In this document: positions 2,760 through 39,817 of the stretch, piece by piece
How positions within the stretch are numbered: the first letter of the stretch is position 1
How the letters are laid out: every line of letters begins with the position of its first letter
From: a virus
Strand: one strand, 5' to 3'
DNA length: 43,947 nt
IMG/VR virus record: IMGVR_UViG_3300011115_000939
Coordinates: 1 to 43,947 of that record
Made by a program: the position numbers and the translations under genes
Notes under the pieces: generated by a model
The model's input: the letters and a program-made list of their open reading frames with translations, nothing else
What the model was told of the DNA's origin: nothing
Database searches by the model: none

Positions 2760-2795
2760 TGTCCTTTTGCCACCCTCAATCTAATGCCACTTTAG
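2760..2795 (+). promoter_or_regulatory. phage late promoter 1 (portal operon)
   Basis: TGTCCTTT at 2760-2767 is followed by a 20-base spacer and the -7-like box CACTTTAG at 2788-2795. The start codon at 2800 is exactly 40 bases from the motif start. From the motif to the end of the -7 box, 35 of the 36 bases are identical to promoter 3 at 9527 (the tenth base is G here and A there), so the two are recent duplicates. Confidence 0.75.
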
Positions 2796-2799
2796 CATT

Positions 2800-3114
2800 A
2801 TGGCAATAGATTTAAAGCGTGTTATTGAAATAGTAGAAAGCGGAGATTGGATAAGTCTCTGTTTTGTTACTGCCGATACAAAACGTGGCAATGGCGGCAA
2901 GTCAATAGAGCTTAAAAGATGCCGCATTGCTCGAAATAGACAGCCTAATGCCAATAAATCAACCTCAAATACTATTCCTTCAGCTAGTAATGCTACCGCT
3001 AGAAATCCACAGCACAACTACCACTTTACCCGTAACCTAGAACTACCCAATAAAAGGTTAGTGAAGGTACATCCACTATTAATTTTTCAAATAAACAACC
3101 AGCAAGTTATATGA
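2800..3114 (+). CDS. hypothetical phage protein upstream of portal
   Basis: The 104-residue basic protein has an N-terminal segment (VIEIVESGDWISLCFVTAD) followed by a GNGGK motif, and ends with KVHPLLIFQINNQQVI. Small proteins of this layout recur directly before the portal gene in Bacteroidota phages; their role is unknown. The start codon is the one placed 40 bases after the late promoter motif, implying a leaderless message. The stop overlaps the next start (ATGA at 3111-3114), consistent with coupled translation of this gene and the portal. Confidence 0.7.
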   Translation: MAIDLKRVIEIVESGDWISLCFVTADTKRGNGGKSIELKRCRIARNRQPNANKSTSNTIPSASNATARNPQHNYHFTRNLELPNKRLVKVHPLLIFQINNQQVI

Positions 3115-4598
3115 ACTATGACGACGATATTGTATTAGATGGTCCTGTTGCTTACATGAAATCAAGCCAGTCTGCTGTCTTTTTTTCTAAGACAAACGGA
3201 AGTGCTGGAACATTCAATTCTACTGGATTAAAAGGAACTGCCGCGCCCATCAGGAAGCTAATGAACCTTATTGATGTGGCACTATGGGGCGAAGACAATC
3301 GCTTTCCGCAAAACATAGAGCAGCAAATGGCTTATTGTGGTATCGGTAAATCTGCTCTAGGACGCAAAGCTCGCAGACTGTGGGGCAATGGAATAATGGC
3401 AGGAAAGATTACTGGGTATAAGGACGATGGTAGTGAAATATTCACCCCAATGCAACCAGGAGAAAACAAGGACTTGTTTAAAATGATGAACAGCCCTCAA
3501 TACTATCGCTTCTGGACTGAATATCTATTAGATTGGGCTTGGTTTGGTAATGTATTCCCTGAAGCAATATTTTCAAAAGATACAAAAAAGATTACTGGAT
3601 GGGTACACCAAGAATCTTGCGATTGCCGGTTCAAGCAAATGGACGATAAAGGCGACATTAGTTCTGTCTTCCTTACCAAAATGTGGGGAATGTCTGGCGA
3701 CCAGTTCTCTAAGTTCGACCCAAAAAGGGTAATGAGAGGCTTGATTCAAAACCCTGTCAATCTGGAGAATGTATTGCCTGTTGATGGCAATTTGCTAAAA
3801 CAATTGGATTGCGCTGATATGTACAATCCGGTTGAATCACTTAAAGCCATTGCAGAAAGGCAGTTATCCGAGCGTGGGTTAGGTGGGTTCAAATCGGCTA
3901 TTGTTCCAAATAATTATCCTTCACCTAACAAGACTTACTATCAGCTTCCTGCATGGGACGGGGCAAGGCTTTCAGGATGGGTTGAAATCGCTTGCAAAAT
4001 ACCTAACCTCATAAAAACCATGTACGAAAAAGCTTTCAATATCAAATACCATATTCAGATACCAGAGAAATACTTTGAGAAGAAATATGGTATTGAGAAG
4101 TGGGAGGCAATGGCGGCAGATGGTACACAGGCAAAAGCTAAAAAGAACCTGTTGCAGGAAATGAACGACTTTCTTTCTGGAAGTGAAAATGCCTTCAAAA
4201 CATTCATTTCATTCTTTGATGTTGACCCTCAGACACAAAAGGAATACGGACTCATCAAGATTGAGGCCATTGAAGATAAAACCAACCTTGACAAGGAATT
4301 GATGACCACCACCGCCGCCAATGTTGAAATATTGATGGCAATGGATGTACATCCTAGTGAAATGAGTGCAGGCTCACCAAGCAGCTCGCACCAATCAGGA
4401 GGTGGCTCTGGTTCAGATATTCGTGAAGCTGGACTAAATAATACAAGCTTGCTACACCTTGAAAGGCAATTGGCACTGTCTCCACTATATATCACTCGTG
4501 ATTTTAACGAGTGGGATAATGATCTAGTTTTTCGTTTTCGTGATGTTGTATTAACAACACTTGATAAAGGAACAGGCACACAAAAAAAGGTTTCTTAA
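3111..4598 (+). CDS. portal protein
   Basis: This 495-residue protein is best read as the portal, the dodecameric ring through which DNA is packaged and ejected and to which the tail attaches. The length fits HK97-type portals. Evidence: an N-terminal region with repeated aromatic and Arg-rich helices, a central WTEYLLDWAWFGNVF membrane-like helix typical of portal wing regions, and a C-terminal segment with VEILMAMDVHPSEMSAGSP followed by a Gly/Ser-rich SGGGSGSDIREAG stretch, matching the usual portal helix and tunnel-loop pattern. It lies just before a connector-like gene. The assignment is from pattern and position rather than a unique motif. Confidence 0.75.
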   Translation: MNYDDDIVLDGPVAYMKSSQSAVFFSKTNGSAGTFNSTGLKGTAAPIRKLMNLIDVALWGEDNRFPQNIEQQMAYCGIGKSALGRKARRLWGNGIMAGKITGYKDDGSEIFTPMQPGENKDLFKMMNSPQYYRFWTEYLLDWAWFGNVFPEAIFSKDTKKITGWVHQESCDCRFKQMDDKGDISSVFLTKMWGMSGDQFSKFDPKRVMRGLIQNPVNLENVLPVDGNLLKQLDCADMYNPVESLKAIAERQLSERGLGGFKSAIVPNNYPSPNKTYYQLPAWDGARLSGWVEIACKIPNLIKTMYEKAFNIKYHIQIPEKYFEKKYGIEKWEAMAADGTQAKAKKNLLQEMNDFLSGSENAFKTFISFFDVDPQTQKEYGLIKIEAIEDKTNLDKELMTTTAANVEILMAMDVHPSEMSAGSPSSSHQSGGGSGSDIREAGLNNTSLLHLERQLALSPLYITRDFNEWDNDLVFRFRDVVLTTLDKGTGTQKKVS

Positions 4599-4608
4599 AA
4601 CTTAGAAT

Positions 4609-5625
4609 ATGTTATTTAAAAAAATTGAAGAAGTTTTAGAGTTCGCAGAAATGACTGCTAGTGTAAACTTTGCTTCCATTCATGGAACCATCAGAAACAT
4701 AGAGCAATGGCATTTAGTCCCTATTCTAGATAAGGCACTTTACACCAGTTTACACAATGCGTATCAGGATGTAACAGATGAAGAGGACCTATCGGCAGCT
4801 AATAAAAACTTGCTGCTTTGGTGTCGCTATGTTATCGGCTCTTATCTGTGCTACCACTATGCACCAAAAGCAGAGGTAAGCCTATCCGATGGTGGAGTAA
4901 GAAGACTGGAAACGGATAAGGCAAAAACAGCCTTTCAGTACCAGGTTAAAAACTTTAGAGACCAACACCTCAGAGAAGCTGAGCAGCATTGTGAGAGCCT
5001 TTATTCTTTCCTTGATGAGAATAAAGATGATTACCCAACTTGGACTTCAAGCAAATCATACACCGCATACAAGAAACTATTTATAAAATCGGCTACCGAG
5101 TTCAATGAACTTTACACCACTGCATCTCCTTTCAGGAATTTCTTTGCCATGCGCTTTAAAATGGTAGATGTAGAAATACAAATGATTAAGCCAGCACTAA
5201 CAAGCCCTTTGTTTGCTGCACTCAAGGAAAAAGATTTATCTGCTCCTGAAACTTTCACTGATGCTGAAACGGAGCTTCTCTCCTACCTAAAAAAAGCTAT
5301 TGCTTACTACACAGTGGCTTATGCTCTACCCTATGTTGCTGTCCGATTCGATGAAAATGGCATTACCATCACATCAGAACAAGGGCGTAGTACCAATGAT
5401 AACCTTGGTAAAATGGGCGATGCAGGGGATGTAAAGATTAGTAACCTAATCAAAAAATGCACTGAAGATGGAAGGCAATGGCTTAAAACCGCCACGGATT
5501 ATATCAATGCCAACTTAGATGAATTCCCTTCATTTGAAGTGCCTACAGTCGTTGAAGTAGAAAACAAATTGGAAGATGCTAATTCATCCAACAATGAATT
5601 AAATGGAAGTTTCGGGTTGGTATAG
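4609..5625 (+). CDS. hypothetical head-tail region protein
   Basis: The 338-residue product is predominantly helical, with two similar-looking halves: an N-terminal part including WHLVPILDKALYTSLHNAYQ and a C-terminal part including LSYLKKAIAYYTVAYALPYVAVRF. It resembles proteins found next to the portal in other Bacteroidota phages (possibly the DUF6712 group), which are proposed head-tail adaptors. It is 10 bases downstream of the portal in the same operon. The family name is a memory-based guess; no catalytic motif is visible. Confidence 0.6.
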   Translation: MLFKKIEEVLEFAEMTASVNFASIHGTIRNIEQWHLVPILDKALYTSLHNAYQDVTDEEDLSAANKNLLLWCRYVIGSYLCYHYAPKAEVSLSDGGVRRLETDKAKTAFQYQVKNFRDQHLREAEQHCESLYSFLDENKDDYPTWTSSKSYTAYKKLFIKSATEFNELYTTASPFRNFFAMRFKMVDVEIQMIKPALTSPLFAALKEKDLSAPETFTDAETELLSYLKKAIAYYTVAYALPYVAVRFDENGITITSEQGRSTNDNLGKMGDAGDVKISNLIKKCTEDGRQWLKTATDYINANLDEFPSFEVPTVVEVENKLEDANSSNNELNGSFGLV

Positions 5626-5631
5626 ATTTTT

Positions 5632-5667
5632 TGTCCTTTTATAGCCATGGCCATAGAAGCATTTTTG
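5632..5667 (+). promoter_or_regulatory. phage late promoter 2 (tail fibre)
   Basis: TGTCCTTT at 5632-5639, a 20-base spacer, then CATTTTTG at 5660-5667. The start codon at 5686 gives a leader of roughly 15 bases. The spacer contains the near-palindrome TATAGCCATGGCCATA. Confidence 0.7.
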
Positions 5668-5685
5668 AAAAGCAAACAGTAAGTA

Positions 5686-6072: not shown

Positions 6073-6074
6073 TT

Positions 6075-9177: not shown

Positions 9178-9525
9178 ATGATGAACGAACAAGTATTGAA
9201 TGAAGCCCGCAACTTATTTGCGGGCTTTTTTAAAAAACGCCGTGAAGAGTTGAAACTTACACAACAGGAACTGGCGGATAAGGTAAACATGAGCCGTGAG
9301 ACCATCTCACGGATGGAAGCTGGTAAATTCTGGCTAGGCATGAAACAATATTTACTTATTTGTGAAGCTCTTCACCTTTTCCCTGCCATTGCTGAAATGG
9401 AGGCAAAAGACGAAATTGCAGAGGCATTAAGAAGCAATTGGACGGCTAAGCCAAAAGCTATGAGTATAGAAGATGCTTTGAAATTAAAAGAGAGTAGACA
9501 CAATAGAGATGGGCAACATAATTAG
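9178..9525 (+). CDS. XRE-family helix-turn-helix regulator
   Basis: The 115-residue protein contains a classic XRE DNA-binding domain over about residues 17-75, with KLTQQELADKVNMSRETISR forming the helix-turn-helix and the MEAGKFW continuation. The C-terminal 35 residues are charged and lack a peptidase domain. A second ATG follows the first directly at 9181. It lies after the lysin and before late promoter 3, so it could regulate the late promoters or timing of lysis; this is inference. A perfect terminator hairpin lies inside codons 9-18, which is unusual. Confidence 0.85.
   Translation: MMNEQVLNEARNLFAGFFKKRREELKLTQQELADKVNMSRETISRMEAGKFWLGMKQYLLICEALHLFPAIAEMEAKDEIAEALRSNWTAKPKAMSIEDALKLKESRHNRDGQHN
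9203..9231 (+). terminator. rho-independent terminator inside the XRE gene
   Basis: AAGCCCGCAA (9203-9212) pairs perfectly with TTGCGGGCTT (9218-9227) around a 5-base loop, and the T-run extends to 9231. It is positioned to end the lysis transcript arriving from upstream, but it falls about 25-54 bases inside the XRE coding region. Confidence 0.75.
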
Positions 9526-9526: not shown

Positions 9527-9562
9527 TGTCCTTTTACCACCCTCAATCTAATGCCACTTTAG
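9527..9562 (+). promoter_or_regulatory. phage late promoter 3 (tail assembly)
   Basis: TGTCCTTT at 9527-9534, 20-base spacer, then CACTTTAG at 9555-9562, nearly identical to promoter 1. The start codon (GTG at 9567) is exactly 40 bases from the motif start, which supports this unusual start. Confidence 0.75.
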
Positions 9563-9566
9563 CTAT

Positions 9567-10379
9567 GTGGTAGAAATAAACTTATATCAGGCAAAGGGTT
9601 TGGACATTCAAATCGACTTCCCTTCATGTTGGGATGACTTAACCCAAAATGAAGTTTTAGAGATATGTAAACTACAGCTACTCAACCCATCCAACAATGC
9701 AGATAATAGAGTATCTTTTTTCTTTTTTCTGATTGAAACCAGAGCGAAACAAAAAGGTGCACAATTACCAAAAGACTTTAAAGAGAAAATGGATTTGGAA
9801 ATTGTAGCAGCTTCTATCTTTCTACTGGACTTCCTGTATTCAGAAAACAACCTAACCATACAGCCACACAAAACAATTGAAGTTGCAGGGAAACAATTAA
9901 TTGGTCTAGAAAATGACTTTGAAAACATCACCTGTGGCGAATTTGAATGCCTAGAATTACTCTTCCATGAGTTTAATGACGCCCCATCAGCGGAGGTACT
10001 TGCTAAAATGTGTGCAATTATCTACCGAGAACAGGGAATTCCATTCCAAGAAATACTGAAGGATAAGTTAGAGACATACGACTTTGACAAAGCCTCAAAG
10101 CCTTTTCTTGAAGTAAAAGCATGGATTCTGTACAGTGCCTATACATGGTACTGTGGATGCAGGCTAAACCTCCCCAATAAGTTTCCAACTGTTTATGAAG
10201 GCAATGGGGAATCAACAGAGCCTGATATGCTCGCATTTACAAAGTGTATTCACGCCGGTGCAGGGGTAAAAAACGGAACGAGAAACCAAATTAGAATTAC
10301 ACCACTGCTTGAATACATGTTTGAAATGGAACAGGAAGCAATTAAAGTAAAAGAATTAAACGCACAACACAATGTCTAG
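9567..10379 (+). CDS. putative tail assembly chaperone-like protein
   Basis: The 270-residue protein has no recognised catalytic motif. Its helical body includes a GEFECLELLFHEF segment followed by EVLAKMCAIIYREQ, a pattern I associate with proteins placed before tail-tube and tape-measure genes in Bacteroidota phages. GTG at 9567 is chosen as the start because an ATG at 9565 leads straight to a stop and because GTG lies at the fixed 40-base distance from the late promoter. The stop overlaps the next gene by 8 bases. The chaperone role is inference. Confidence 0.6.
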   Translation: MVEINLYQAKGLDIQIDFPSCWDDLTQNEVLEICKLQLLNPSNNADNRVSFFFFLIETRAKQKGAQLPKDFKEKMDLEIVAASIFLLDFLYSENNLTIQPHKTIEVAGKQLIGLENDFENITCGEFECLELLFHEFNDAPSAEVLAKMCAIIYREQGIPFQEILKDKLETYDFDKASKPFLEVKAWILYSAYTWYCGCRLNLPNKFPTVYEGNGESTEPDMLAFTKCIHAGAGVKNGTRNQIRITPLLEYMFEMEQEAIKVKELNAQHNV

Positions 10380-14078: not shown

Positions 14079-14114
14079 TGTCCTTTTATAAAGGATGATA
14101 CTAGACAAATTTTG
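14079..14114 (+). promoter_or_regulatory. phage late promoter 4 (tape measure)
   Basis: TGTCCTTT at 14079-14086, 20-base spacer, then AAATTTTG at 14107-14114. The start codon at 14146 leaves a leader of about 25-30 bases that contains the palindrome AGATACACAAAAGTATCT. The motif itself is part of TCCTTTTATAAAGGA, an inverted repeat. Confidence 0.7.
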
Positions 14115-14145
14115 AGGTAGATACACAAAAGTATCTCTCTTTTAT

Positions 14146-19114: not shown

Positions 19115-19150
19115 TGTCCTTTAATACCAACTAGCATAGTGCAATCTTAG
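19115..19150 (+). promoter_or_regulatory. phage late promoter 5 (baseplate-like gene)
   Basis: TGTCCTTT at 19115-19122, 20-base spacer, then AATCTTAG at 19143-19150. The start codon at 19155 is exactly 40 bases from the motif. A perfect CATAGTGC/GCACTATG inverted repeat (19135-19157) spans the -7 box and the start codon. Confidence 0.72.
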
Positions 19151-19154
19151 CACT

Positions 19155-21068
19155 ATGATTAATCAATTGCAGATTTATGTATATGGTCCTCAGGAAGAGG
19201 GCTTTCTTGAGTTACCCATAGGTACCATACTTAATTTGGAAGAAATGGCAGACGCCTTTGATGATAATTTCAGCATAGGCGTCTTTTCTTTGCCCATTAC
19301 TGTAGCTTGGACTCCTACCAACAGGCGTTTACTTGGCTTTGCCGAAACCATCCAAAACAATAATGAGAAAGCATTTTACTTTAAATGCCATATTTATAAT
19401 GACGGCTTTCCCGAAATGATGAATGCTAAAATGCTTTTATTGGAAAAAGTAGGCAACTTTAAATACACAAAAGGTTCATTTAGCTTTTCTATATCTGGTA
19501 CTAAGGGTTTATTTGGTTCTCTCATCCAAAACAAAAAACTAAAAGACCTGGTACTTAGTGGACCAATAACCTACACTACAGAAAGCCGTGTATTTGCTAC
19601 CGAAGTAATGAAAGGATCATTCCCACAATATCCATTCTTGAAGTTTGCACCCGTAGCCATAGAAAACTATTTTGATACCAACCGTCCAGACTATGACAAC
19701 GTGAATGATTTTCTTTTCAAGGACACTGTAAATAACATAGTGGTAACCGGGAGCACTGCCAACGCTTGGAGCTTTGGTCGCCCTACGGCTCACTACGATG
19801 GTAGCACTATTGTTTTAACCTCCACGCTTACATCGCCCGGAGATAATTACCCACTATATCGCCATAGCGATGTAAGGACAGTGCCATTTTTTAGCCTGAA
19901 ATATGTTTTTAAAAAGGTTTTCGAAGAGCATGGTTATACTGTTTCTGGTGCATTTGTTGACGATGCCGCATGGGACGACTTGGTGCTTTTCAATAATTGC
20001 GCATTGGAAAATTACGCAACCCCATACATAGACAGAAACCGAACAATAATACCGGGCAATCATGTACCACCAGACATGTACATATTTGGTTTTCTGCAAG
20101 GCATATTTAGCTTGTTTAAAATATACCCTGTATTCGACCAAACAAATAATGTGAAGCTATACTACAAGGTAAATGACTTTGTAAACAAAAGAGTGTTGCC
20201 ACTTACGGACAAATGCACGGGCGAATTTGATAGTGCCATTAGCGATAGTAATAACTATGATAGTAATAACCCATCAAACAACGCCAATGGCTATAAATTA
20301 GCCTACTCGTGGGATAGTTACGATAGTTACCAAGGAGACAGGATAAAGGATATAACCATCAATAAATATGATGGCACTACGTGGGTGGGTGACAAACAAT
20401 TAGCGGCTACTGTAGCCACCATTGCCGCCTTACAAACACTCACCATCACACTTACCACAGACACCCTTGTACTTGTAGAAGCCGAAAACATGTTCTACCT
20501 ATGTGCCAATGCTACCACTATCCCTACCAAGTGGGATTGCTGGGCAGAAAACCTATCGGCATACACAAAGGGTACAGGCGCAAAGAGTATTGAAATTCCT
20601 ATTAGCACGCTTTGTACTTATGTAAAAAACAATACGCTTACTGCACTAATAGAAAAACAATTGTATTGTGGATGCCGACAGCTAGGTAGCTACAAGAATA
20701 AGCTAGGAGTACAAGTGGTAAACCCTTTTGGGTTGCGTGTTTTTTTTATAAGCAAACAACTAGTAGGTGGAGTAGATATTCCTGTAAGTACAAATTTTAA
20801 CAGGGTAGCTAGTGGAGTAAAAATTTACCCTTACAACCTTGGGTGGCGTGGTAGTGATGGACTAGCAGAAAACTTTCACGGTAAATGGGAGGAAATGCAA
20901 ATACAAATTGAGATTTTGAAAACTGATATTAGGGCAGATACCAAAGTAATAACCGAAATGGATGCCAGTAATATCTATGAGATTAATGGTATCCAGTTTT
21001 TGCCATATAAGAGAGAAAGGCAGATACCATGCAAAGTGCCTGTGACGCAATATCTTATTCCTATATAG
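19155..21068 (+). CDS. distal tail / baseplate-like protein
   Basis: The 637-residue protein starts with a beta-rich domain containing FLELPIGTILNLEEM and then FSLPITVAWTPTNRRLLGF, the 'native-state phage tail' pattern seen in siphophage distal-tail and baseplate hub proteins of Bacteroidota phages. The middle has repeated aromatic strands and a YDSNNPSNNANGY low-complexity stretch. No hydrolase motif is seen. As the last gene of late region I, after the tape measure, it fits the distal tail or hub role. It may carry receptor-binding loops. Confidence 0.6.
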   Translation: MINQLQIYVYGPQEEGFLELPIGTILNLEEMADAFDDNFSIGVFSLPITVAWTPTNRRLLGFAETIQNNNEKAFYFKCHIYNDGFPEMMNAKMLLLEKVGNFKYTKGSFSFSISGTKGLFGSLIQNKKLKDLVLSGPITYTTESRVFATEVMKGSFPQYPFLKFAPVAIENYFDTNRPDYDNVNDFLFKDTVNNIVVTGSTANAWSFGRPTAHYDGSTIVLTSTLTSPGDNYPLYRHSDVRTVPFFSLKYVFKKVFEEHGYTVSGAFVDDAAWDDLVLFNNCALENYATPYIDRNRTIIPGNHVPPDMYIFGFLQGIFSLFKIYPVFDQTNNVKLYYKVNDFVNKRVLPLTDKCTGEFDSAISDSNNYDSNNPSNNANGYKLAYSWDSYDSYQGDRIKDITINKYDGTTWVGDKQLAATVATIAALQTLTITLTTDTLVLVEAENMFYLCANATTIPTKWDCWAENLSAYTKGTGAKSIEIPISTLCTYVKNNTLTALIEKQLYCGCRQLGSYKNKLGVQVVNPFGLRVFFISKQLVGGVDIPVSTNFNRVASGVKIYPYNLGWRGSDGLAENFHGKWEEMQIQIEILKTDIRADTKVITEMDASNIYEINGIQFLPYKRERQIPCKVPVTQYLIPI

Positions 21069-22460: not shown

Positions 22461-23177
22461 ATGACTGACTTGTTAAGAAGGCTTAAAAAAGCCAATGCAT
22501 CAAGATGCCCACATTATGGACACTTTATTGAAGATTGGACACCAACGGATTGGGCTTGTGCTGTTGCTGGTGAAGTTGGAGAATTATGCAACTTTATTAA
22601 AAAAGCAAAAAGGGGTGATGACATTCTATTAAAGGACATTGCAAAAGAAGCCGCAGACGTTATTATTTATTTAGACATACTTTGTCAAAGATTAGGGATT
22701 GATTTGCATGATGCAATTGTCAGCAAGTTCAATGAGTCATCTGCAAAACTTAAAGTAGATATTACACTTGAGCCAGATAACCCGATTAAGTACTTATATG
22801 AACTTTATGGCAAAGACCATTCTGGTAAAAGAGTTTTTAATAATGTTATCATATTCATAGGTCCAGTTGCGTCAGGGAAAACTTATGCCATTGATAGTTT
22901 TTTTGAGAAATACGCTTTTACCCCAAAAGAAATATATTCAACTTATAGTTGGAATCCTGCTAAACCAATAAAGGCCTCAGCAAGGGTAATTTATATTGAT
23001 GGTATAGTATTACCTCCCTATTTTACGACTATAGTCAATGACTTTCCAAAAGATATATTAGTAGTCGTAGAAGCTCAAGGGACAAAAGCCGATATACCAC
23101 TTGAAATAATTGACCGCTGTACAATAGTTGAATGTAATTATCATAACCCATCAATAAAAACTTATGAAATCATATAA
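22461..23177 (+). CDS. MazG-like pyrophosphohydrolase fused to P-loop domain
   Basis: The 238-residue protein joins two modules. Residues 1-100 carry the MazG all-alpha NTP-PPase signature E38-x-x-E41 and E63-x-x-D66 (EVGEL, KEAADVIIYLD), which binds Mg2+ to hydrolyse (d)NTPs to NMP and pyrophosphate. Residues 125-238 carry a Walker A motif GPVASGKT (134-141) and a hydrophobic strand ending in an acid (VIYIDG near 177), as in small AAA-type or kinase-like P-loop proteins. Phage MazG proteins can alter ppGpp or dNTP pools or sanitise nucleotides. The fusion is not one I recognise. It is in the early operon. Confidence 0.7.
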   Translation: MTDLLRRLKKANASRCPHYGHFIEDWTPTDWACAVAGEVGELCNFIKKAKRGDDILLKDIAKEAADVIIYLDILCQRLGIDLHDAIVSKFNESSAKLKVDITLEPDNPIKYLYELYGKDHSGKRVFNNVIIFIGPVASGKTYAIDSFFEKYAFTPKEIYSTYSWNPAKPIKASARVIYIDGIVLPPYFTTIVNDFPKDILVVVEAQGTKADIPLEIIDRCTIVECNYHNPSIKTYEII

Positions 23178-23554: not shown

Positions 23555-23586
23555 AGAGTTTTGTTTTTTTAAGGGGATTAATTATC

Positions 23587-23608
23587 GGCGGCTATTTCTA
23601 TAGCTGCC
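23587..23608 (+). terminator. hairpin after early operon 1
   Basis: GGCGGCTAT (23587-23595) pairs with ATAGCTGCC (23600-23608) around a TTCT tetraloop, with one G-T wobble. An interrupted T-run (ACTTTTAAAGCTTTT) follows. It probably weakens or ends the early transcript before the RNA cluster. Confidence 0.5.
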
Positions 23609-23645
23609 ACTTTTAAAGCTTTTACTCACAATTAAATATACGATT

Positions 23646-23741
23646 ATGCTTGCCACTGTGATTATTGTAGCCCTTTTGGTAGCCGATATGATTATCTATT
23701 CGAGCGCAATTGAGGTCAATACAGAAGAAAAAGAATTTTAA
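23646..23741 (+). CDS. 31-residue putative membrane peptide
   Basis: Open frame MLATVIIVALLVADMIIYSS followed by an acidic tail ending EEKEF. One transmembrane helix is predicted. There is no ribosome-binding site, as is usual here. A similar 36-residue membrane peptide lies at 26078. It could be a real small protein or chance. Confidence 0.35.
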   Translation: MLATVIIVALLVADMIIYSSAIEVNTEEKEF

Positions 23742-23809
23742 ACTAGGTTTTCAAGGACAATTACGTACGGAAGGGGTTTCTAATACTTACAATTTTTAAA
23801 AAAAATTAA

Positions 23810-23973
23810 GGCTTAGTGGCGAAATTGGTAAACGCTAGCCCACTAGATTGGGTGACATAGCGGAGAGTTCAATTCTCTCGCAAGAGTGAAGGGGAGCATA
23901 CTAGGAAGCTCGCATACTTCGAGTTTGTTCGTGGAATACGACTATGATGCAGGTTCGACTCCTGCCTAATCCA
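23810..23973 (+). ncRNA. tRNA-like RNA with extra T-arm hairpin
   Basis: The 5' end GGCTTAG (23810-23816), TG and a perfect D-arm GCG...CGC with GG in the loop (23819-23835) closely match bacterial tRNA-Leu. The 3' end has T-arm GCAGG-TTCGACT-CCTGC (23949-23965), then CTAATCC (23966-23972) pairing with GGCTTAG at six of seven positions, then A. Between them lies a GCCCA/TGGGT hairpin with loop CTAGAT, another T-arm-like hairpin GAGAG-TTCAATT-CTCTC (23863-23879), and about 70 more bases. No complete conventional tRNA fits. It could be a tRNA with an insertion, a degenerate tandem pair, or a tRNA mimic. Confidence 0.5.
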
Positions 23974-24109
23974 CACATTCTCCCTTCAATATGTGAGAAG
24001 CTTTAAAGAATGAAACCCTCTTCGTAGGATGGTTTTAGCGGCGACAAGAACGGAAAGACGTAAAGCCATAGCAGAGGGCGAATACTCTGCTAACTTTTAA
24101 AACTCGCAA
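23974..24109 (+). ncRNA. structured primase leader RNA
   Basis: CCCTCT (24016-24021) pairs with AGAGGG (24073-24078), and inside it ATGGTTTTA (24029-24037) pairs with TAAAGCCAT (24061-24069; one G-T) around a 23-base loop. The same AGAG bases also form GCAGAG (24071-24076) with CTCTGC (24085-24090), so the two folds exclude each other. The primase ATG is at 24110. A CACAT/ATGTG stem lies at 23974-23995. No T-run follows, so control would be translational if it exists. No known riboswitch class is recognised. Confidence 0.4.
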
Positions 24110-29855: not shown

Positions 29856-30043
29856 TGTATGCTAATAGCCAACATATTGAACCCCCTGATACATTAGTTG
29901 TACAAATGCTTACTCCAGAAGAGGAAAGGTTAGTAGATTTGTTTTCCAACGTCATAATTTCCACCACTTTAAAAGAACTGCATGAAAAAAGGAATACGTT
30001 ATTTAAGGTACAGCAGCAAGGGACAGAGCCACAGCAGCATTGA
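29855..30043 (+). CDS. hypothetical protein upstream of integrase
   Basis: The 62-residue protein starts with the base shared by the previous stop codon and overlaps the integrase start by 62 bases. It contains LTPEEERLVDLFSNVIISTTLKELHEKRN, a helical segment. Bacteroidota serine recombinase genes are often preceded by such a short gene. It may be an integrase accessory protein; this is inferred from location only. Confidence 0.5.
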   Translation: MYANSQHIEPPDTLVVQMLTPEEERLVDLFSNVIISTTLKELHEKRNTLFKVQQQGTEPQQH

Positions 30044-31571
30044 GACGCAGGATATGTACACCTCTAGGTGGTTTGAAATAAACAAAGTAGAACTGACAGA
30101 CACTTTTATTGATGCCGGGCATTCTGCAAAAACATTTGACCGCCCAGATATGACATTGCTTACTCAATTCATAGCCAAGCATCATAAAGATTGCGACTAT
30201 CTTGTAGTTACAGAAATGGATCGTTTCTCTCGCGATGCAGGAGAAGCCATCAGCCTTATCAAAAAACTTCAACTTAAATACGCTGTTCAGATTGTATCAG
30301 TAACTGAAGGTATTACCTACGATTACCGTGATAGCGGCAGTTTCTTCCGCACTGGATTATCTTTCCTTCTAGCTGAAGACGATAACATTCGTAGAGCCAA
30401 TAAAATAAACAGTGGCATCTACACAGCTAAAGCACAAGAGGGAAGATTTATTGGCGCAAAGCCACCTTATGGCTACAGAACCGAAGGAACTGGCAAGGCA
30501 AGAAAACTTGTTATTGATGAAGCTGAGGCAATCATAGTAAAGTTTATTTACCACTCATACCTAAAGAATGTTCCCATCTATATGATTAAGGAACAGGCTA
30601 AAGAGAAAGGCTTCAAGCTAGGAAGTAAATCTCCTGTTCAAGATATATTGGTTAATCCAATATACAGCGGACAGCAAAACGTAAAGCCTTGGAGGACATT
30701 ACCAGGAGGAATATTCCCTGCAATACATGAACCCATCATTGACATGATGACTTGGCAAATGACACAAAAAAAGCTAAGTGGTAAAGAAGACAAAGTTTTG
30801 ACGATGATTAGAGAAGAGTTCCCACTAAGGGGAGTTCTCAAATGTCATTGTGGAATAACCGCCACTGGAGCACCAAGCAAGGGAAGACTGAAATGGTACA
30901 ACTACTACAAGTGCAAGAAAAGTACAGGCCATTTAAATATTGGCACTATTAAGGCTCACAGCCAACTAAGAGAAATGCTTACCTATTTAAGCCTTCCTAA
31001 TTATTTGGTGGTGGCCATTGAGCAGAAGAGCAGGGAAATGTTAGAAGCTGCCATGCAAGAAAACAAAATACTGATAAGCCAATTTAAAACAGAGCTTATT
31101 ACTGTTGAGAAAAGGATTACCAGTGTAGAGACAAAATGGATTGATGAGCAAATGACATTTGAAACCTACAACAAACATTTCAAGGACTTAACTCAACAAC
31201 GAATATTCTTAAAATCAAAGATTGAAGAGTTATCTGCAGACGATAAAGAAGCCTATACGCTGTTATATGGAAATCTTAGAAAGTTGACTGATATGGTTTC
31301 CCTTTATGAAGCTGCTACAGTAATCCAAAAGCAAGAGCTTATCCGCATGGTGTTCGATAGTAAACTATACTATCAGAGCGGAAGCTATCGAACACCTTAT
31401 ATCATGAATATCTTTTCTCATAACCTATTGATTCTTAGTGAGAAAAAGCTGCTAGTTGTAGATGCAAAAACGGGTTCTATTGCTAGAACCCGCTTAGGTG
31501 GAAGTGAGCAGTCTCCAATCGAACACCTAACCCCATTTTTAAAATTTATTTCCTCAATTAAAGTCGCTTAA
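29982..31571 (+). CDS. int: large serine recombinase (phage integrase)
   Basis: The 529-residue protein has an N-terminal resolvase domain (Y7-L-R-Y-S11-S, Ser11 being the nucleophile; EMDRFSRD at about 78-85), a recombinase domain with GAKPPYGYR near 160, a zinc-ribbon-like segment (KCHC...KCKK near 288-312) and a coiled-coil (about 335-415). It would catalyse attP x attB integration through a 5'-phosphoserine link. Length fits phiC31-type enzymes. Translation continues to the stop at 31571 through a sequence that folds as DNA inverted repeats, where attP could lie. A directionality factor is not identified. Confidence 0.9.
   Translation: MKKGIRYLRYSSKGQSHSSIETQDMYTSRWFEINKVELTDTFIDAGHSAKTFDRPDMTLLTQFIAKHHKDCDYLVVTEMDRFSRDAGEAISLIKKLQLKYAVQIVSVTEGITYDYRDSGSFFRTGLSFLLAEDDNIRRANKINSGIYTAKAQEGRFIGAKPPYGYRTEGTGKARKLVIDEAEAIIVKFIYHSYLKNVPIYMIKEQAKEKGFKLGSKSPVQDILVNPIYSGQQNVKPWRTLPGGIFPAIHEPIIDMMTWQMTQKKLSGKEDKVLTMIREEFPLRGVLKCHCGITATGAPSKGRLKWYNYYKCKKSTGHLNIGTIKAHSQLREMLTYLSLPNYLVVAIEQKSREMLEAAMQENKILISQFKTELITVEKRITSVETKWIDEQMTFETYNKHFKDLTQQRIFLKSKIEELSADDKEAYTLLYGNLRKLTDMVSLYEAATVIQKQELIRMVFDSKLYYQSGSYRTPYIMNIFSHNLLILSEKKLLVVDAKTGSIARTRLGGSEQSPIEHLTPFLKFISSIKVA
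31471..31530. other. candidate attP region in 3' end of integrase gene
   Basis: CGGGTTCT (31471-31478) and AGAACCCG (31485-31492) form a perfect dyad flanked by AAAAA. Next, TTAGGTG (31494-31500) and CACCTAA (31524-31530) flank a 23-base core. Attachment sites of serine integrases are imperfect palindromes of about 50 bases next to int, so this is the best att candidate visible. The core crossover cannot be identified. The first dyad read on the - strand, followed by T5, would also look like a terminator. Confidence 0.35.
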
Positions 31572-31573: not shown

Positions 31574-33970
31574 ATGACCAATACTACTGCTATGTCAATT
31601 CCCGACAAATTCATTTCCCTTCATAATGATGCCATTATTTGGAAATACAACAAATTATGGAGTAATGTTAAAGAACCAGACGAACAAGCCTCCGCTGTTG
31701 AGTCTATTACTCAAATGCTTCTCTGCATTTCAAATGAAACAAAAAGAACTGCTTACATTAAAAGCATCACTGAAAACAACTCGTTTTACATTAAAAATAC
31801 TATCAATGACATCAACAATACTGAAAGGTCAATCAGTGACATTGATAAGTCAATCAAAAAACTATTGGCTAGGAAGAACAAAAGCGAAGAGCATGACAAA
31901 GAAGTGGAAACATTGCAGCAAGAGCTATCACTTCATAAGGATTCGTTGGCGGAGCTTCAGGCAAAAAGGATTATCAACCTCCCGGAGTCAACATTAAAAA
32001 AATCAGTGAACAAAGCCATCACTGATAAGGCTCAAAAAGAAGCTACTGCCAAAATGAAGGCACAGTTCGAAATGAAAATAAAAACCAAAGAAGAGGCTGG
32101 AATGCCCGAGGACTTCAAAGGAGATATGCAAGATGTGTATGATGCCTTGAAGTATGGCATTTATGAGCATGATGATGTTTATTACTCTCGTGGTGGTAAA
32201 GGTGATTATCCAATATCAAACTTTACCATGAAAATACTTTACCACGTTAATACCTCTGAAGACTCAGCTTTCAGGTTGATTGCACTAAAGAATGTATATG
32301 GCTTTGAGGTAGTGATTAATCTGAATACTGATGATTTTGTTGCGTTGGGATCGTTTAAAAAAGTATTGGCCAGAAAAGGAGACTTTGTCTTCAAAGGAAC
32401 AGATGCAGACCTTACCCGATTACAAGAGTTTCTGCAGAAGGATGAAGTAAAGACAGATTTAGTAAAAACATTAGGGTATCATTCTCGTGGAATGTTTTGG
32501 GCATGGTCAAATGGCATAATGCCATTAGAGGTTAATGCTGATGGTAAGCTTGACTTTATGCCAATTGACCAATATGGAATAGTTAATTACCAGGACAAAA
32601 ACTATTTCATTCCTGCATGCAGTAAAATGTTTGCTGAAAAAGATGATTTGTTTGTAAATGAAAAGAAGTTCAAATTCATTGAACCGTTAAATTCATTTGG
32701 GTTCAATGAATGGGCTACACTAATGGATAGGACTTATGGAAAGAAATCCATTCCATGTATCTTATTCTATATAGGTTCTCTATTCAGAGATATTACTATG
32801 AAACAAATCCAACGCTACCCAATGCTCAATTTGTTTGGTCCACCCGGAGCAGGTAAAGGACAGATGGCAGAAAGTATCATGACAATGTTTGGGGAGAAGC
32901 AAGACCAGATAATGTTAGGCGGTGCCAGTACAGTAGTTGGCTTTATGCGAAAGTTTGCCCAGTTCCGCAATGCCATCGTTTGGCTAGATGAATACAAGAA
33001 TAACCTACCTGTGAAGTTTATCGAGTCTCTAAAGAATATATATGATGGTAAAGGTTATGAGCGCGGTAAGATGACTAATGACTTTTCTACTGAAAGTACA
33101 CCAATATACTCAAGCTGCCTTTTATCTGGTCAAGATATGCCTACACAAGAGCCTGCTCTATTCATGCGTGTTATTATGCTAGCCTTCGAAGATGGGAAGT
33201 TTACTAATGAACAGAGAGAAGCTTTTGGAGAATTAAAGAACACTTATGAATCTCATGGCCTTTCTTCCATCACTGCCGATATATTCAAACACCGAAAAAT
33301 AATACAGGATGGATTCAAAGAGAAGCTTCAGATAATATTTAAGGAAGTAGTTAAGGATGTGAGCAATACGGAGGTAGATGATAGAATGATGATGAACATC
33401 TCTATCCTATTAACTTATATGAACCTATTAAATGAAGCCATTAAATTTCCATTCTCCTACAAAGAGGCAAAAGCGTTTCTTATAGATAACATGATTAATC
33501 AACACCATGTTCTTGCAGGTAATAATGATGTTTCTAAGTTCTGGGGAGTAGTTGAATCAATGTTCACTCAAGACATCATTCACGAAAACAAAGATTTTGT
33601 TTTGGAGGATGGCTACTTGTATCTAAGACTTATGCAAGTACATCCACTTTACCTTAAAGAATTGAGAAGTAGAAACGACCCAAACATTTTGAGTAAAAGC
33701 ACACTTGAACATTATCTTAAACTAGATTCTTCGATGTATATAGATTACGTAAGAAAAAGATTTTCTGATGGAAGTAATAACTGGTGTTATAAAATGAGGT
33801 ACTCTAAATTAGGTATAGATATGATTAGATTGAGACAAGAGGCTCTAGAAGGTGATGACAAATATGATAAAAGACTGGTATCAAAGTATAAAGAAATGGG
33901 TGTTGATATAGGGTCTAACATGCCATATGACAATAAAAACAAAAATAATGATGAGGACATGCCATTTTAG
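31574..33970 (+). CDS. AAA+ replication ATPase/helicase with SSB-like C-terminal tail
   Basis: The 798-residue protein has a coiled-coil N-terminal region (about 75-170), an uncharacterised middle, and a P-loop ATPase core with Walker A GPPGAGKG (about 422-429) and Walker B IVWLDEY (about 467-473), similar to DUF927/DnaC-like helicase cores. It is probably the phage replicative helicase or loader, working with the primase. The final residues NNDEDMPF match the acidic SSB C-terminal peptide (D/E-rich then [IL/M]PF), unusual for an ATPase. A terminator and iteron-like array follow, so it may initiate replication there. The start is 3 bases after the integrase stop. Confidence 0.75.
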   Translation: MTNTTAMSIPDKFISLHNDAIIWKYNKLWSNVKEPDEQASAVESITQMLLCISNETKRTAYIKSITENNSFYIKNTINDINNTERSISDIDKSIKKLLARKNKSEEHDKEVETLQQELSLHKDSLAELQAKRIINLPESTLKKSVNKAITDKAQKEATAKMKAQFEMKIKTKEEAGMPEDFKGDMQDVYDALKYGIYEHDDVYYSRGGKGDYPISNFTMKILYHVNTSEDSAFRLIALKNVYGFEVVINLNTDDFVALGSFKKVLARKGDFVFKGTDADLTRLQEFLQKDEVKTDLVKTLGYHSRGMFWAWSNGIMPLEVNADGKLDFMPIDQYGIVNYQDKNYFIPACSKMFAEKDDLFVNEKKFKFIEPLNSFGFNEWATLMDRTYGKKSIPCILFYIGSLFRDITMKQIQRYPMLNLFGPPGAGKGQMAESIMTMFGEKQDQIMLGGASTVVGFMRKFAQFRNAIVWLDEYKNNLPVKFIESLKNIYDGKGYERGKMTNDFSTESTPIYSSCLLSGQDMPTQEPALFMRVIMLAFEDGKFTNEQREAFGELKNTYESHGLSSITADIFKHRKIIQDGFKEKLQIIFKEVVKDVSNTEVDDRMMMNISILLTYMNLLNEAIKFPFSYKEAKAFLIDNMINQHHVLAGNNDVSKFWGVVESMFTQDIIHENKDFVLEDGYLYLRLMQVHPLYLKELRSRNDPNILSKSTLEHYLKLDSSMYIDYVRKRFSDGSNNWCYKMRYSKLGIDMIRLRQEALEGDDKYDKRLVSKYKEMGVDIGSNMPYDNKNKNNDEDMPF

Positions 33971-34058: not shown

Positions 34059-34167
34059 TGGAACACATGGAACAGATGGAACAATATTTAAAATCAATTA
34101 GTTATGAATAAAAAATGTTCCATCGTGTTCCATGTGTTCCACCATGTTCCATTGTTCCAATGTTCCA
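34059..34167. repeat. TGGAACA/TGTTCCA iteron-like array, candidate origin
   Basis: Three direct copies of TGGAACA lie at 34059, 34068 and 34077 (9-base period), then a 32-base AT-rich stretch, then six copies of the reverse complement TGTTCCA at 34116, 34126, 34135, 34145, 34153 and 34161 (8-10-base period). A further partial GGAACA is at 33979. The arrangement, oppositely oriented clusters around an AT-rich core beside replication genes, resembles iteron-type origins. A regulator-binding array is the alternative. Confidence 0.65.
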
Positions 34168-34217
34168 TTAAGAAAAAACGACTTTTTGAACTCATTTTTT
34201 AAAAAAAATAAAAAATT

Positions 34218-34403
34218 ATGAAGCACTTTTTTTTGCAATCAGGCTTTTCATGCTTGTGGTTTGTTGCCGGATTAATACTTGGGGGAGTAATAGCCACCCT
34301 CCTCCTTGTTATAGTAGGTAAAAAAGCAGCCAAAGAGGCTACTGATAGAATAAACCGAAACATGGAGGTTAACCATGAAATTTCTAAAATTTTAAATCAA
34401 TAA
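34218..34403 (+). CDS. small single-pass membrane protein
   Basis: The 61-residue protein has one strong transmembrane helix (about 13-35, GLILGGVIATLLLVIV) and a charged, soluble C-terminal helix. It lies after the origin-like array and before a 170-residue protein. Function is unknown. Confidence 0.55.
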   Translation: MKHFFLQSGFSCLWFVAGLILGGVIATLLLVIVGKKAAKEATDRINRNMEVNHEISKILNQ

Positions 34404-34408: not shown

Positions 34409-34924
34409 ATGAAAGGATTCATGAGTATTGACATACCTACTAAGGCATACATCAAAGCTTACATTATCTCTCAACTAGGGGAACGCCCAGAGATGACTGC
34501 CAACAATCTGTTTGGCAATAAGTTACATGATCTGCTGGAGCACAAGACCAATGAAAGAAAAACAGAGTTCTCTAATGCCAGATATACAACCACCATAAGG
34601 GTATATATTCCCATGAGAACTTTCAGAGTAAGAGGGTTTAACCTCAATGAAACAAACATCAAAAACTTTAACCAGTTTGTGGAGCTGCTCATCAAGCATA
34701 GATACTACGAGCTGATGGATGATGCAATAGAAATACTCCCCTCTTTTGAGGCACACCTACCAGCAGTTAGAAAAAAGCTAGGAATTGACATTGAGGCTTG
34801 GAGTGATGATTCTATGAAGAAAGATTATTATAGATATAGGCAAAACAATAAAAAAAGGCTGTTTTATAACAAAAACATTTCCCGAACTGTCCTTTCAGAA
34901 GTGGCGGCGAACATTGCCTTTTAG
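34409..34924 (+). CDS. hypothetical DNA-associated early/middle protein
   Basis: The 170-residue protein is highly basic, helical, and has a beta element around YTTTIRVYIPMRTFRVRG. Proteins with this general shape (KAYI near the start, final YYRYR segment) occur on Bacteroidota phages and mobile elements next to replication genes; their role is not established. It is the last gene before the late promoters, so it is a candidate activator or alternative sigma-like factor for them. That is a guess from position. A late motif is buried at its 3' end. Confidence 0.55.
   Translation: MKGFMSIDIPTKAYIKAYIISQLGERPEMTANNLFGNKLHDLLEHKTNERKTEFSNARYTTTIRVYIPMRTFRVRGFNLNETNIKNFNQFVELLIKHRYYELMDDAIEILPSFEAHLPAVRKKLGIDIEAWSDDSMKKDYYRYRQNNKKRLFYNKNISRTVLSEVAANIAF
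34888..34923 (+). promoter_or_regulatory. phage late promoter 6
   Basis: TGTCCTTT at 34888-34895 lies inside the 3' end of the previous gene, followed after 20 bases by the weak box GCCTTTTA (34916-34923). An exact TAGTTTTG lies 6 bases further on (34922-34929), so the true -7 box is uncertain. The start codon ATG at 34935 is 47 bases from the motif. Confidence 0.6.
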
Positions 34925-35439: not shown

Positions 35440-35475
35440 AGTCCTTTTAATCCCTTCTCAATGCCGTGATTTTCG
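35440..35475 (+). promoter_or_regulatory. phage late promoter 7 (capsid operon)
   Basis: AGTCCTTT at 35440-35447 (first base differs from the rest), 20-base spacer, then GATTTTCG at 35468-35475. ATG at 35495 gives a leader of about 15 bases. Confidence 0.65.
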
Positions 35476-35494
35476 TATAGAAATAAGGCACTAA

Positions 35495-36879: not shown

Positions 36880-36922
36880 TTTTTTTAGTAACAATTTTTA
36901 ATAACAGTTTAAATCTTTTAGT

Positions 36923-37891: not shown

Positions 37892-37914
37892 TAGTAAACA
37901 ATATTTAATAAAAA

Positions 37915-37936
37915 GCCACCCTAGCAATAGGGTGGC
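37915..37936 (+). terminator. perfect hairpin after major capsid gene
   Basis: GCCACCCTA (37915-37923) pairs perfectly with TAGGGTGGC (37928-37936), closed by a GCAA (GNRA-type) tetraloop. Only ATAATTC follows, so it is not a classical terminator. It probably stabilises the capsid mRNA 3' end or reduces expression of downstream genes. Confidence 0.65.
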
Positions 37937-37951
37937 ATAATTCAAAAAAGC

Positions 37952-38278
37952 ATGTTTGAAGTAACAGAAGAAACGGAAATTACAACTGCTGATTTGCATG
38001 AGATTGTAAAAAAACAAGGGGAAGAAATTAATACCCTTAAATCATTATTGGCAGCAAAAAAAGAAACCGAAATAACTCTTAACAAAAAAGAGGAATTGCC
38101 AGAGATTCCTAAAGATGCTGTTAAGGTTGACGGCAAGGAATACAAATTTACTGTCGCTCGTTTCCGTTTGCCTAACAGAAGCGAAATTGTTTTAGCTGAT
38201 CAAGCTGCATTGGATAATGCTTTGCTAAAGGAAATTTTAGCTATTGAAGGGCAAAACATCCTGAAAGAACAGGTTTAA
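37952..38278 (+). CDS. hypothetical head protein
   Basis: The 108-residue protein has an acidic N-terminal coiled-coil (about 10-50) and a beta segment VDGKEYKFTVARFRL. Position after the capsid gene suggests a decoration or head-completion role; nothing more specific is seen. Confidence 0.5.
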   Translation: MFEVTEETEITTADLHEIVKKQGEEINTLKSLLAAKKETEITLNKKEELPEIPKDAVKVDGKEYKFTVARFRLPNRSEIVLADQAALDNALLKEILAIEGQNILKEQV

Positions 38279-38332
38279 AAATGGTTCTTTTAATAGTAAA
38301 AAATATTTAATCATTCATCAATTTATTAAGTT

Positions 38333-38875
38333 ATGTCTACTTACGCATACAAAAATTTAAAGACCCCTCAGAACATCCCTAGCGGATTGGCGGAGTTTGT
38401 TTTGATAGCGCCTATGGCTTGGATAACTGCTTTGTCAGTGCCTACGGCTCCATTCACTGATCCAGGTGATGAGATTACCATCACCACCGCACACACCTTT
38501 GCTACAGGTAAAGGATTTGCTAAACACCAACTTGCTCCTCAGAAAAACAAACTTGATATCAAGTCAAGAGGTGAACTTGCATTGCAAGGGCAAATGCAAG
38601 AGTTGGACATTTTTATTCCTGGTTCTTATGCTCAGGTTCACGAGCAAATGAAAAAGTTCCAAAACACACCTGTTGTTGCATTGGCTAAAGATGCCAACTC
38701 CGAAGCTGATATGTGGTATCAATTAGGAAACGATACTCTCAGCGCATGGATGACGGTTGATTTTAGCACCGGTACTACCAAGGATGGTGTGAAAGGATAC
38801 ACCGCAAAAATAACTTTTGATGGTGGACCATTAATTTACAATCCAGGAGCAGAGCCAGTAGTTATTACTGACTAG
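38333..38875 (+). CDS. tail tube-like protein (copy B)
   Basis: The 180-residue protein is a paralogue of the 193-residue product at 10932: shared KGF...APQKN, GEL, FIPGSYA, WYQLG and FSTGTTKDGVKGY. It is followed by a strong terminator. A tail-tube-type beta protein in the head region is unexpected if copy A is the tail tube; one may be a virion decoration or a second tail component. Confidence 0.65.
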   Translation: MSTYAYKNLKTPQNIPSGLAEFVLIAPMAWITALSVPTAPFTDPGDEITITTAHTFATGKGFAKHQLAPQKNKLDIKSRGELALQGQMQELDIFIPGSYAQVHEQMKKFQNTPVVALAKDANSEADMWYQLGNDTLSAWMTVDFSTGTTKDGVKGYTAKITFDGGPLIYNPGAEPVVITD

Positions 38876-38901
38876 TAGCTTTTAAAACGTAGTTTTAAAA
38901 A

Positions 38902-38929
38902 AGCCTTCCATCATTGGGAGGCTTTTTTT
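38902..38929 (+). terminator. rho-independent terminator of capsid operon
   Basis: AGCCTTCC (38902-38909) pairs with GGGAGGCT (38916-38923; one T-G wobble), loop of six, followed by a T-run to 38929. It ends the capsid operon. Confidence 0.85.
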
Positions 38930-38943
38930 GTTACTTTCGCCAG

Positions 38944-39064
38944 ACGCGAATACTTACAGTTTAATCAATATGCTACCTTAATGGTGGCTGCTTGGATTTC
39001 TATCCAATTGGTTAAACCTATGTATTCGCGTACAGCAGCCACTAATTTTTAAAAAGCGAATACG
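38944..39064 (+). ncRNA. interlocked (pseudoknot-type) RNA element before gene at 39065
   Basis: Stem 1: ACGCGAATAC (38944-38953) with GTATTCGCGT (39022-39031), 10 perfect pairs. Stem 2: GTGGCTGCT (38984-38992) with AGCAGCCAC (39034-39042), 9 perfect pairs. The strands alternate 1-2-1'-2', a pseudoknot order. A small hairpin TTGGAT-TTCT-ATCCAA sits at 38992-39007, so it competes for one base with stem 2. A second copy of strand 1, GCGAATAC, is at 39056-39063, touching the ATG at 39065. It lies directly after the terminator and no late motif precedes it. Class unknown. Confidence 0.6.
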
Positions 39065-39400
39065 ATGGAAGAAACTAATGAAAAAGAAAAACAGGATGTT
39101 TCAGAAAACGAAGTAATCATCAATGCTACTGATAAAAAGGAAAAGCAAGATGTTCCCGAAAATGAACTTATTACCAGGATAAAGAAATGCTTGCTTGATC
39201 TATATTGTCCAGCCGACAATATCAACGAAACTGAGTTTCATCTTTCCTCTTCAGAAGTCTACGAAAAATTAGTAAGCATATTTCCTTATTCAAATGAATT
39301 CACTATCAACTCAGTAAATATCTGGTTGCATGAACTAGGCTATAAGTTTAATGATTTTGGTGAAATGAGATTTGAATGGTTATTCAAGAGAAACGCTTAA
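39065..39400 (+). CDS. hypothetical acidic protein under RNA element
   Basis: The 111-residue protein has a duplicated N-terminal segment (EKEKQDVSENEVI and KKEKQDVPENELI, 13-residue repeats) and then a winged-helix-like C-terminal region (SSSEVYEKLVSIFPYSNEFTINSVNIWLHELGYKF). A DNA-binding role is conceivable. Its start codon directly follows the structured RNA element, which may control its translation. Confidence 0.6.
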   Translation: MEETNEKEKQDVSENEVIINATDKKEKQDVPENELITRIKKCLLDLYCPADNINETEFHLSSSEVYEKLVSIFPYSNEFTINSVNIWLHELGYKFNDFGEMRFEWLFKRNA

Positions 39401-39453
39401 CTTTACACTCATAAACAGGCGCATCACCTGTATAAACTCTGATAAACTTCACT

Positions 39454-39780
39454 ATGGCTAGAGAATATCCACGCTTTCTTTTCAGCAATCCACAGAACAC
39501 AAAAAGTAAAGGTCCGTTTATCGTTCATTGCCTTGAACCGTTCTGCATATTCAGGCTTACAAGCAAACCATTTGACAAAATCAAATATCCAAAATACGTA
39601 ATTGTCCGTGTTACCCCAAGTTTGGGATACCCTTTAATTCTTCTTAAACGTAATATCAAGGAAGCCAAAGAATTAAAAGAAGATTTTAATGGATTTAATG
39701 AAATCATGAATGATGCAGCTGCATTTGTTTTGGCAGGCTTTAAAAGTGGAGAAATTCCATTAGAAACAGAAGATTGGTAA
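39454..39780 (+). CDS. hypothetical protein before packaging operon
   Basis: The 108-residue protein is unassigned: alpha/beta with a basic patch (RLTSKPFDKIKYPKYVIVRV) and an acidic helical C-terminus. It lies between the RNA-controlled gene and late promoter 8. No function inferred. Confidence 0.5.
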   Translation: MAREYPRFLFSNPQNTKSKGPFIVHCLEPFCIFRLTSKPFDKIKYPKYVIVRVTPSLGYPLILLKRNIKEAKELKEDFNGFNEIMNDAAAFVLAGFKSGEIPLETEDW

Positions 39781-39781
39781 T

Positions 39782-39817
39782 TGTCCTTTAGATGGCGTTC
39801 GCCATGTTGTATTATTG
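39782..39817 (+). promoter_or_regulatory. phage late promoter 8 (packaging operon)
   Basis: TGTCCTTT at 39782-39789, 20-base spacer containing ATGGCG-TT-CGCCAT (perfect inverted repeat), then TATTATTG at 39810-39817. The start codon at 39822 is exactly 40 bases from the motif start. Confidence 0.75.

Follow-up and report, generated by a model that had tools for sequence, protein, structure and literature searches.

The DNA analysed here (the window) is 43,947 nucleotides (nt) long and covers positions 1–43,947 of the IMG/VR virus record IMGVR_UViG_3300011115_000939; our subject is an element, TGTCCTTT-N20-nAnnTTTG, that recurs ahead of its late genes (Table 1). The whole analysis is sequence-based. 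The original prediction described an eight-member promoter family, and all eight motif copies are present on the + strand, the one at 35440 as AGTCCTTT and the other seven as exact TGTCCTTT. Two more exact copies, at 22631 and 32855 on the - strand, both lie within genes. Across both strands, 9 exact copies are observed against 2.6 ± 1.8 expected, a number reached in 1 of 100 shuffles. Gene gaps make up 8.5% of the window, yet hold 6 of the 7 exact + strand copies (P = 2e-6).

We scanned both window strands with a weight matrix trained on the sites of other phages, the window excluded. The top seven sites, in order 5632, 2760, 39782, 14079, 9527, 19115 and 35440, score 15.8–24.7 bits, and all lie on the + strand in gene gaps. 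The site ranked eighth (11.6 bits) is within a gene, and the best score in 20 dinucleotide shuffles was 15.0 bits. Seven sites are therefore retained as standard members of the family. The copy at 34888, with its poor -7 box, is not among the top matrix scores; the relatives L317 and L322 nevertheless have TGTCC at the corresponding position, where this gene ends. As proposed, the family keeps to the structural, lysis and packaging genes: the replication and integration region at about 20–34 kb has no member.

Table 1. Predicted late promoters of the window, the additional motif copy and the proposed activator gene
Feature	Position (strand)	Sequence elements	Predicted start and gene downstream	Basis
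Late promoter 1	2760..2800 (+)	TGTCCTTT 2760-2767; -7 box CACTTTAG 2788-2795	2800 (offset-40 rule) = A of ATG, gene 2800-3114, ahead of portal 3111-4598	matrix 22.8 bits
Late promoter 2	5632..5672 (+)	TGTCCTTT 5632-5639; box CATTTTTG 5660-5667	5672; leader 14 nt to ATG 5686	matrix 24.7 bits, best in window
Late promoter 3	9527..9567 (+)	TGTCCTTT 9527-9534; box CACTTTAG 9555-9562	9567 = GTG start codon of 9567-10379	matrix 18.6 bits
Late promoter 4	14079..14119 (+)	TGTCCTTT 14079-14086; box AAATTTTG 14107-14114	14119; leader 27 nt to ATG 14146, tape measure gene (PHROG)	matrix 18.9 bits
Late promoter 5	19115..19155 (+)	TGTCCTTT 19115-19122; box AATCTTAG 19143-19150	19155 = A of ATG	matrix 16.1 bits
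Late promoter 6	35440..35480 (+)	AGTCCTTT 35440-35447; box GATTTTCG 35468-35475	35480; leader 15 nt to ATG 35495, head maturation protease (PHROG)	matrix 15.8 bits
Late promoter 7	39782..39822 (+)	TGTCCTTT 39782-39789; box TATTATTG 39810-39817	39822 = A of ATG; operon leading to large terminase 42033-43667 (tblastn to annotated terminases)	matrix 20.1 bits
Motif copy, doubtful as N20 promoter	34888..34895 (+)	TGTCCTTT within 3' end of gene 34409-34924; box GCCTTTTA		
gp34409, 171 aa, proposed late-gene activator	34409..34924 (+)			family; AlphaFold/Foldseek; position before late block

The same element is found at the late genes of distantly related Bacteroidota phages. A scan of IMG/VR with the portal protein recovered no close relatives, nor did a scan with the protein encoded at 19155; a search of a phage collection by portal gave six records at 24–28% identity. 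At that distance and beyond, the element occurs in phages from Polaribacter, ‘Microcystis’, Cellulophaga, Bacteroides, Porphyromonas and the human gut, and outside the motif the promoters of these relatives do not align. Polaribacter phage Leef_1 carries six exact TGTCCTTT on the + strand, each ahead of late genes. TGTCCTT-N20-box precedes five late genes in the ‘Microcystis’ phage Mea-Yong924-1 and three in a human-gut phage; between three and five sites were counted per genome in Cellulophaga phage Ingeline_1, Bacteroides phage BT-TP2 and a phage of Porphyromonas gingivalis. The spacing is exactly 20, with the same element at late genes, in L003, L004, L005, L008, L009 and L010. The listing of a cyanobacterial host for L004 (MZ447863, recorded host Microcystis) looks doubtful, given gene content and promoters of Bacteroidota-phage type.

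Spacing and box were evaluated on sites picked by TGTCCTT(T) alone. A further 92 TGTCCTTT sites come from viral contigs that were not fetched by means of these sites; 9 of them have the box at spacer 20, and no other spacer between 0 and 66 has it more than twice. When sites are picked by TGTCCTT alone, the -7 box is dominated by A2, T5, T6 and G8. Two Flavobacterium phages lack TGTCCTTT promoters: at late genes laban6-1 has TGTCACAA-N20-box and FPSV-F7 has TGTCTTAA-N19-box, five of five in each by mechanical count, and the diverged relatives L326 and L331 retain the matching element type. TGTC is therefore constant, whereas the four bases that follow it, and the spacer length by one base, vary by phage lineage. 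By these comparisons, the seven window sites are one predicted late-gene promoter type common to very distant Bacteroidota phages. Some promoter spacers contain a perfect inverted repeat directly 5' of the T-rich box (GCCCGC..GCGGGC in L005, CCAAGAC..TCTTGG at L312:8629 and GCCTCGC..GCGAGGC at L318:12441), which may be a terminator of the upstream operon overlapping the promoter.

The two halves of the element differ in their likeness to host promoters. Bacteroidota primary-sigma promoters have TAnnTTTG at -7 and TTTG at -33; the element has the same -7 box, at the same published distance to the start, and TGTCCTTT, TGTCACAA or TGTCTTAA in place of the TTTG. The host spacer is variable, whereas here it is fixed at 20, and a G follows TGTCCTTT in only 12% of 196 non-redundant viral sites among the matches listed. 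The putative promoter is thus composite: its -7 half is the host primary-sigma box and its -33 half is phage-specific. Exact spacing supports this arrangement, as does its conservation in many viral contigs and in eight relatives with annotation. Transcript starts mapped in Flavobacterium psychrophilum (PMC9723704) have the TAnnTTTG box at -12 to -5, which puts the predicted +1 at offset 40 of the element. A start 38–44 bases after the motif had been expected; the narrower prediction coincides exactly with the start codon at 4 of the 7 sites (2760, 9527 (GTG), 19115 and 39782).

The 196 listed viral sites were picked on motif and box regardless of start codons, so only the distance to ATG and the unselected positions serve as evidence. 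Among these listed sites, ATG occurs 31 times at offset 40, compared with 4 times for either neighbouring offset (39 and 41), and a second hump lies at offsets 53–58. Leadered sites in the list have A at offset 40 in 59% of cases and G at 39 in only 6%, and their leader is A-rich. We therefore predict two classes of mRNA, one leaderless and the other with a short A-rich leader, mostly of 13–18 nt. The leaderless class is predicted from exact spacing, which is seen at 4 of the 7 sites in the window and at 31 of the 196 listed viral sites; among the 143 listed viral sites with a downstream open reading frame (ORF), a leaderless mRNA is predicted for 30. For comparison, 5' untranslated regions under 10 nt make up 3.7% in Bacteroides thetaiotaomicron (PMC7366714), and leaderless mRNAs 5.5% in F. 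psychrophilum (PMC9723704).

Two regulators had been named as candidate readers of the element. The product of the gene at 9178 (XRE/HTH_3) is set aside, with a match in only 1 of 8 relatives, whereas gp34409 is well supported. When nine phage proteomes were compared, the families present in eight or nine were structural and packaging proteins, primase and integrase. A profile of a further family of about 160 amino acids (aa) ranks its known members in BT-TP2, the gut phage and the Porphyromonas phage first, and its next six matches are exactly the homologues in Leef_1, laban6-1, the window (gp34409), Mea-Yong924-1, Ingeline_1 and FPSV-F7. The BT-TP2 member is encoded at 5501–5989 of L009. The iterated profile finds exactly one member per phage in 9 of 9 phages, the weakest at 2.8e-4 and the next match at 0.57. 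The window-type and A4-type families align with each other (hhalign, E 3e-5) and have a C-terminal acidic-K-x-YYR segment in common. Their AlphaFold models (mean predicted local distance difference test scores of 81 and 91) have nearly the same order of elements, and in a Foldseek search of a viral library the top-ranked match of both is the Leef_1 homologue, a protein of 157 aa (E 2e-7 and 2e-5; probability 1.00). The family has no match in Pfam, and the window, A4-type and Leef members have no significant match to Pfam or PHROG regulator families (GerE, XRE and others); the laban member matches phrog_21888, of unknown function. Viral-library matches of the A4 model to late-transcription coactivators were weak (E 0.7–2) and are not counted as evidence. 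The A4 family was found in 0 of 297 genomes across Bacteroidota, in none from two further phyla (200 genomes each) and in 19 of 301 genomes from the family to which the Bacteroides fragilis genome belongs. The positive control worked, and the A4 family is therefore uncommon in a one-genome-per-species sample.

The family gene is associated with the element by position. In 8 of 9 phages a TGTC element (TGTCCTTT, TGTCCCTT, TGTCCCCT, TGTCACAA or TGTCTTAA) is found near its stop codon, at distances ranging from 37 nt upstream to 38 nt downstream. At 75 homologue loci fetched by protein alone (67 A4-type and 8 window-type), the 453 kb upstream of the gene contain no + strand copy of TGTCCTTT, and the 585 kb downstream contain 39. 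TTTGTCC is found within about 110 bp 3' of most A4-type genes, and again after several of 20 loci fetched later.

We infer activation by a phage protein, and it is probable that a phage activator, most likely gp34409, recruits host polymerase to the late promoters at TGTCCTTT. The phage would be temperate, judging by its integrase, and the sites would be its late promoters. A serine-recombinase-type integrase gene (PHROG integrase / DNA invertase) lies at 29982–31571 and suggests a temperate phage. Host RNA polymerase with its primary sigma (sigmaA / sigmaABfr) would read the -7 box nAnnTTTG, and TGTCCTTT, at -40 to -33, would replace the host -33 element. A phage-encoded activator bound to TGTCCTTT would hold the polymerase there, presumably through sigma, with a fixed spacing of 20 bp. 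The candidacy of gp34409 reflects its putative status as an early gene just ahead of the late block, and its family appears to accompany the element through phages of several families, with subfamilies pairing with different element versions. Once made from the early operon, gp34409 would switch on all late operons together. The notion of one regulon joining the late operons is supported by conservation, exact spacing and the restriction to the late side. RNA would start at offset 40, giving the leaderless class, which would be translated directly from its start codon, and the short-leader class.

Several observations weigh against assigning this role to gp34409. The Mea-Yong924-1 homologue, the sole exception among the nine, lies far from the late genes and has no adjacent TGTC. 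A search of the PDB with the A4 model gave no match at E <= 0.001 and thus no significant match to a DNA-binding fold. Co-occurrence with the late block can be explained by shared descent of the whole block, with no regulator–target pair, and the apparent link between gp34409 subfamily and element version comes from few independent lineages. In addition, the TGTC elements that adjoin the activator-family gene often lack the N20 box and have 11–12-bp direct repeats instead; the activator-adjacent promoter may therefore be built differently. In L266, L271, L272, L286 and L291, TTTGTCC stands right after the activator-family gene, followed by two or three direct repeats of 11–12 bp such as AAAACTGTATC or AAAATGTCGG, one helical turn apart, and then by GTGTTTGAnTATCAA before the next gene.

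It is also conceivable, if unlikely, that the promoters are as described but are read by another factor (a GerE/LuxR-type or other phage protein, or a host factor), and that the gp34409 family acts elsewhere, for example in packaging or in the timing of lysis. A GerE-domain family does lie near the primase in Leef_1, Mea-Yong924-1, laban6-1 and Ingeline_1, and DNA binding by gp34409 is itself a proposal. The LuxR genes that earlier authors reported for Leef and Ingeline (PMC8776804) are the main alternative. However, no GerE homologue was found in the window or in the BT-TP2, Porphyromonas, gut and FPSV-F7 phages (5 of 9), yet the promoter type is present in them; we have therefore rejected a LuxR/GerE protein, present in only 4 of 9 phages, as the common reader. 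The 9178 protein is too narrowly distributed for that part, and a host factor would not account for different elements among phages of one host genus. That these are plain host promoters seems improbable. Sigma would then act on the -7 box alone, TGTCCTTT would be a phage-preferred sequence without a regulator, and timing would follow from replication or read-through. The -7 box is indeed of host type (PMC7366714, PMC9723704), and the composite pattern also stands ahead of some non-phage Bacteroidota genes. The host -33 element, however, is TTTG with a variable AT-rich spacer, whereas distant phages share all eight bases of this element and its exact spacing; the late-side restriction (0 versus 39 copies of TGTCCTTT) and the exchange of the element as a unit in other lineages also argue against this explanation.

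Least probable of all is a hairpin element with the box in its loop, acting either through folded read-through RNA in which the start codon is concealed, for which T4 gene e is a precedent (PMC3014915), or as an extruded hairpin promoter, as in N4. Perfect stems surround the box at 2760, 19115, L322:12928, L324:665 and L004:28689, the stem differing at each, and predicted folding energy is below that of shuffles in both the leaderless and the leadered class. At 19115 the perfect stem CATAGTGC/GCACTATG has a pairing probability of 1.0, and read-through transcripts folded in this way would have their start codon concealed. Such a stem is nevertheless absent from most sites, unlike the N4 type, which has a hairpin at every promoter, and spacing stays at 20 whatever the stem length. 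When only the spacer is shuffled, start-codon pairing is 0.53 versus 0.46 shuffled for leaderless sites and 0.60 versus 0.63 for leadered sites. Pairing is thus not raised as a class, though striking at single sites, and we rejected the hairpin as the defining feature. The likeness to the occluded late promoters of T4 gene e, soc and I-TevI is confined to 19115 and a few relatives; hiding of the start codon may be relevant at single genes and is not a general rule.

The proposed recruitment by a phage activator has parallels in better-known phages. At T4 middle promoters a MotA box at -30 replaces the -35 element, and MotA acts with AsiA (PMC6755090). As in T4 sigma appropriation, the host -10/-7 element is kept, an upstream phage-specific box stands at a fixed distance and, as proposed here, a phage protein would redirect host polymerase; unlike T4 middle promoters, these serve late genes. 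For MotA/AsiA likeness, the gp34409 candidate has no Pfam or PDB-fold match, and other early proteins were not all searched. The proposed role and the position just before the late block recall a different group of regulators. Late activators of temperate phages (Q, ArpU and RinA types) have their genes where the early region ends. Unlike them, gp34409 has no Pfam or convincing PHROG match to these families, and any action it has would be on numerous promoters spread over the late region.

The literature searched contains no earlier account of how Bacteroidota phages turn on late genes. We regard it as evenly balanced whether Bacteroidota temperate phages in general share one late switch, in which a fold-orphan family seizes the upstream half of the host primary-sigma promoter, with lineage-dependent target bases and one class that starts RNA at the start codon. 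Bacteroidota are dominant bacteria of the human gut and seawater, and the comparison provides a conserved promoter, whose RNA start is predicted to the base, and a named candidate regulator in 9 of 9 compared phages. The natural variants of element and regulator permit specificity swaps. The leaderless class predicts a natural set of mRNAs, in a phylum leaning little on Shine–Dalgarno sequences, and the promoters could supply phage-dependent parts for bacteria poorly served by standard genetic tools.

Outside phages, a scan of genome contigs for TGTCCTTT-N20-TAnnTTTG gave, among the matches listed, mostly background outside Bacteroidota, and in the same list an ORF lies downstream in 6 of 41 non-Bacteroidota versus 22 of 40 Bacteroidota genome matches. 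In four Bacteroidota genomes (L141, L152, L178 and L183) the pattern stands ahead of the same non-phage gene, for a secreted CPPCnnnCDD protein; the element may be common to phages and this host gene, or may persist in the latter through shared ancestry.

Two further features of the window lie outside the promoters. Rfam gave five matches only, all far under gathering scores. At 34060–34180, between a replication gene that ends at 33970 and the gene at 34218, direct and inverted copies of TGGAACA/TGTTCCA are clustered near the proposed activator gene and are a possible operator or replication origin. A 555-bp gene-free stretch at 23555–24109, in which ARAGORN and Rfam found nothing, contains GGTTCGACTCCTGCC, which resembles the T-arm of a transfer RNA or transfer-messenger RNA; the stretch is possibly an attachment site.

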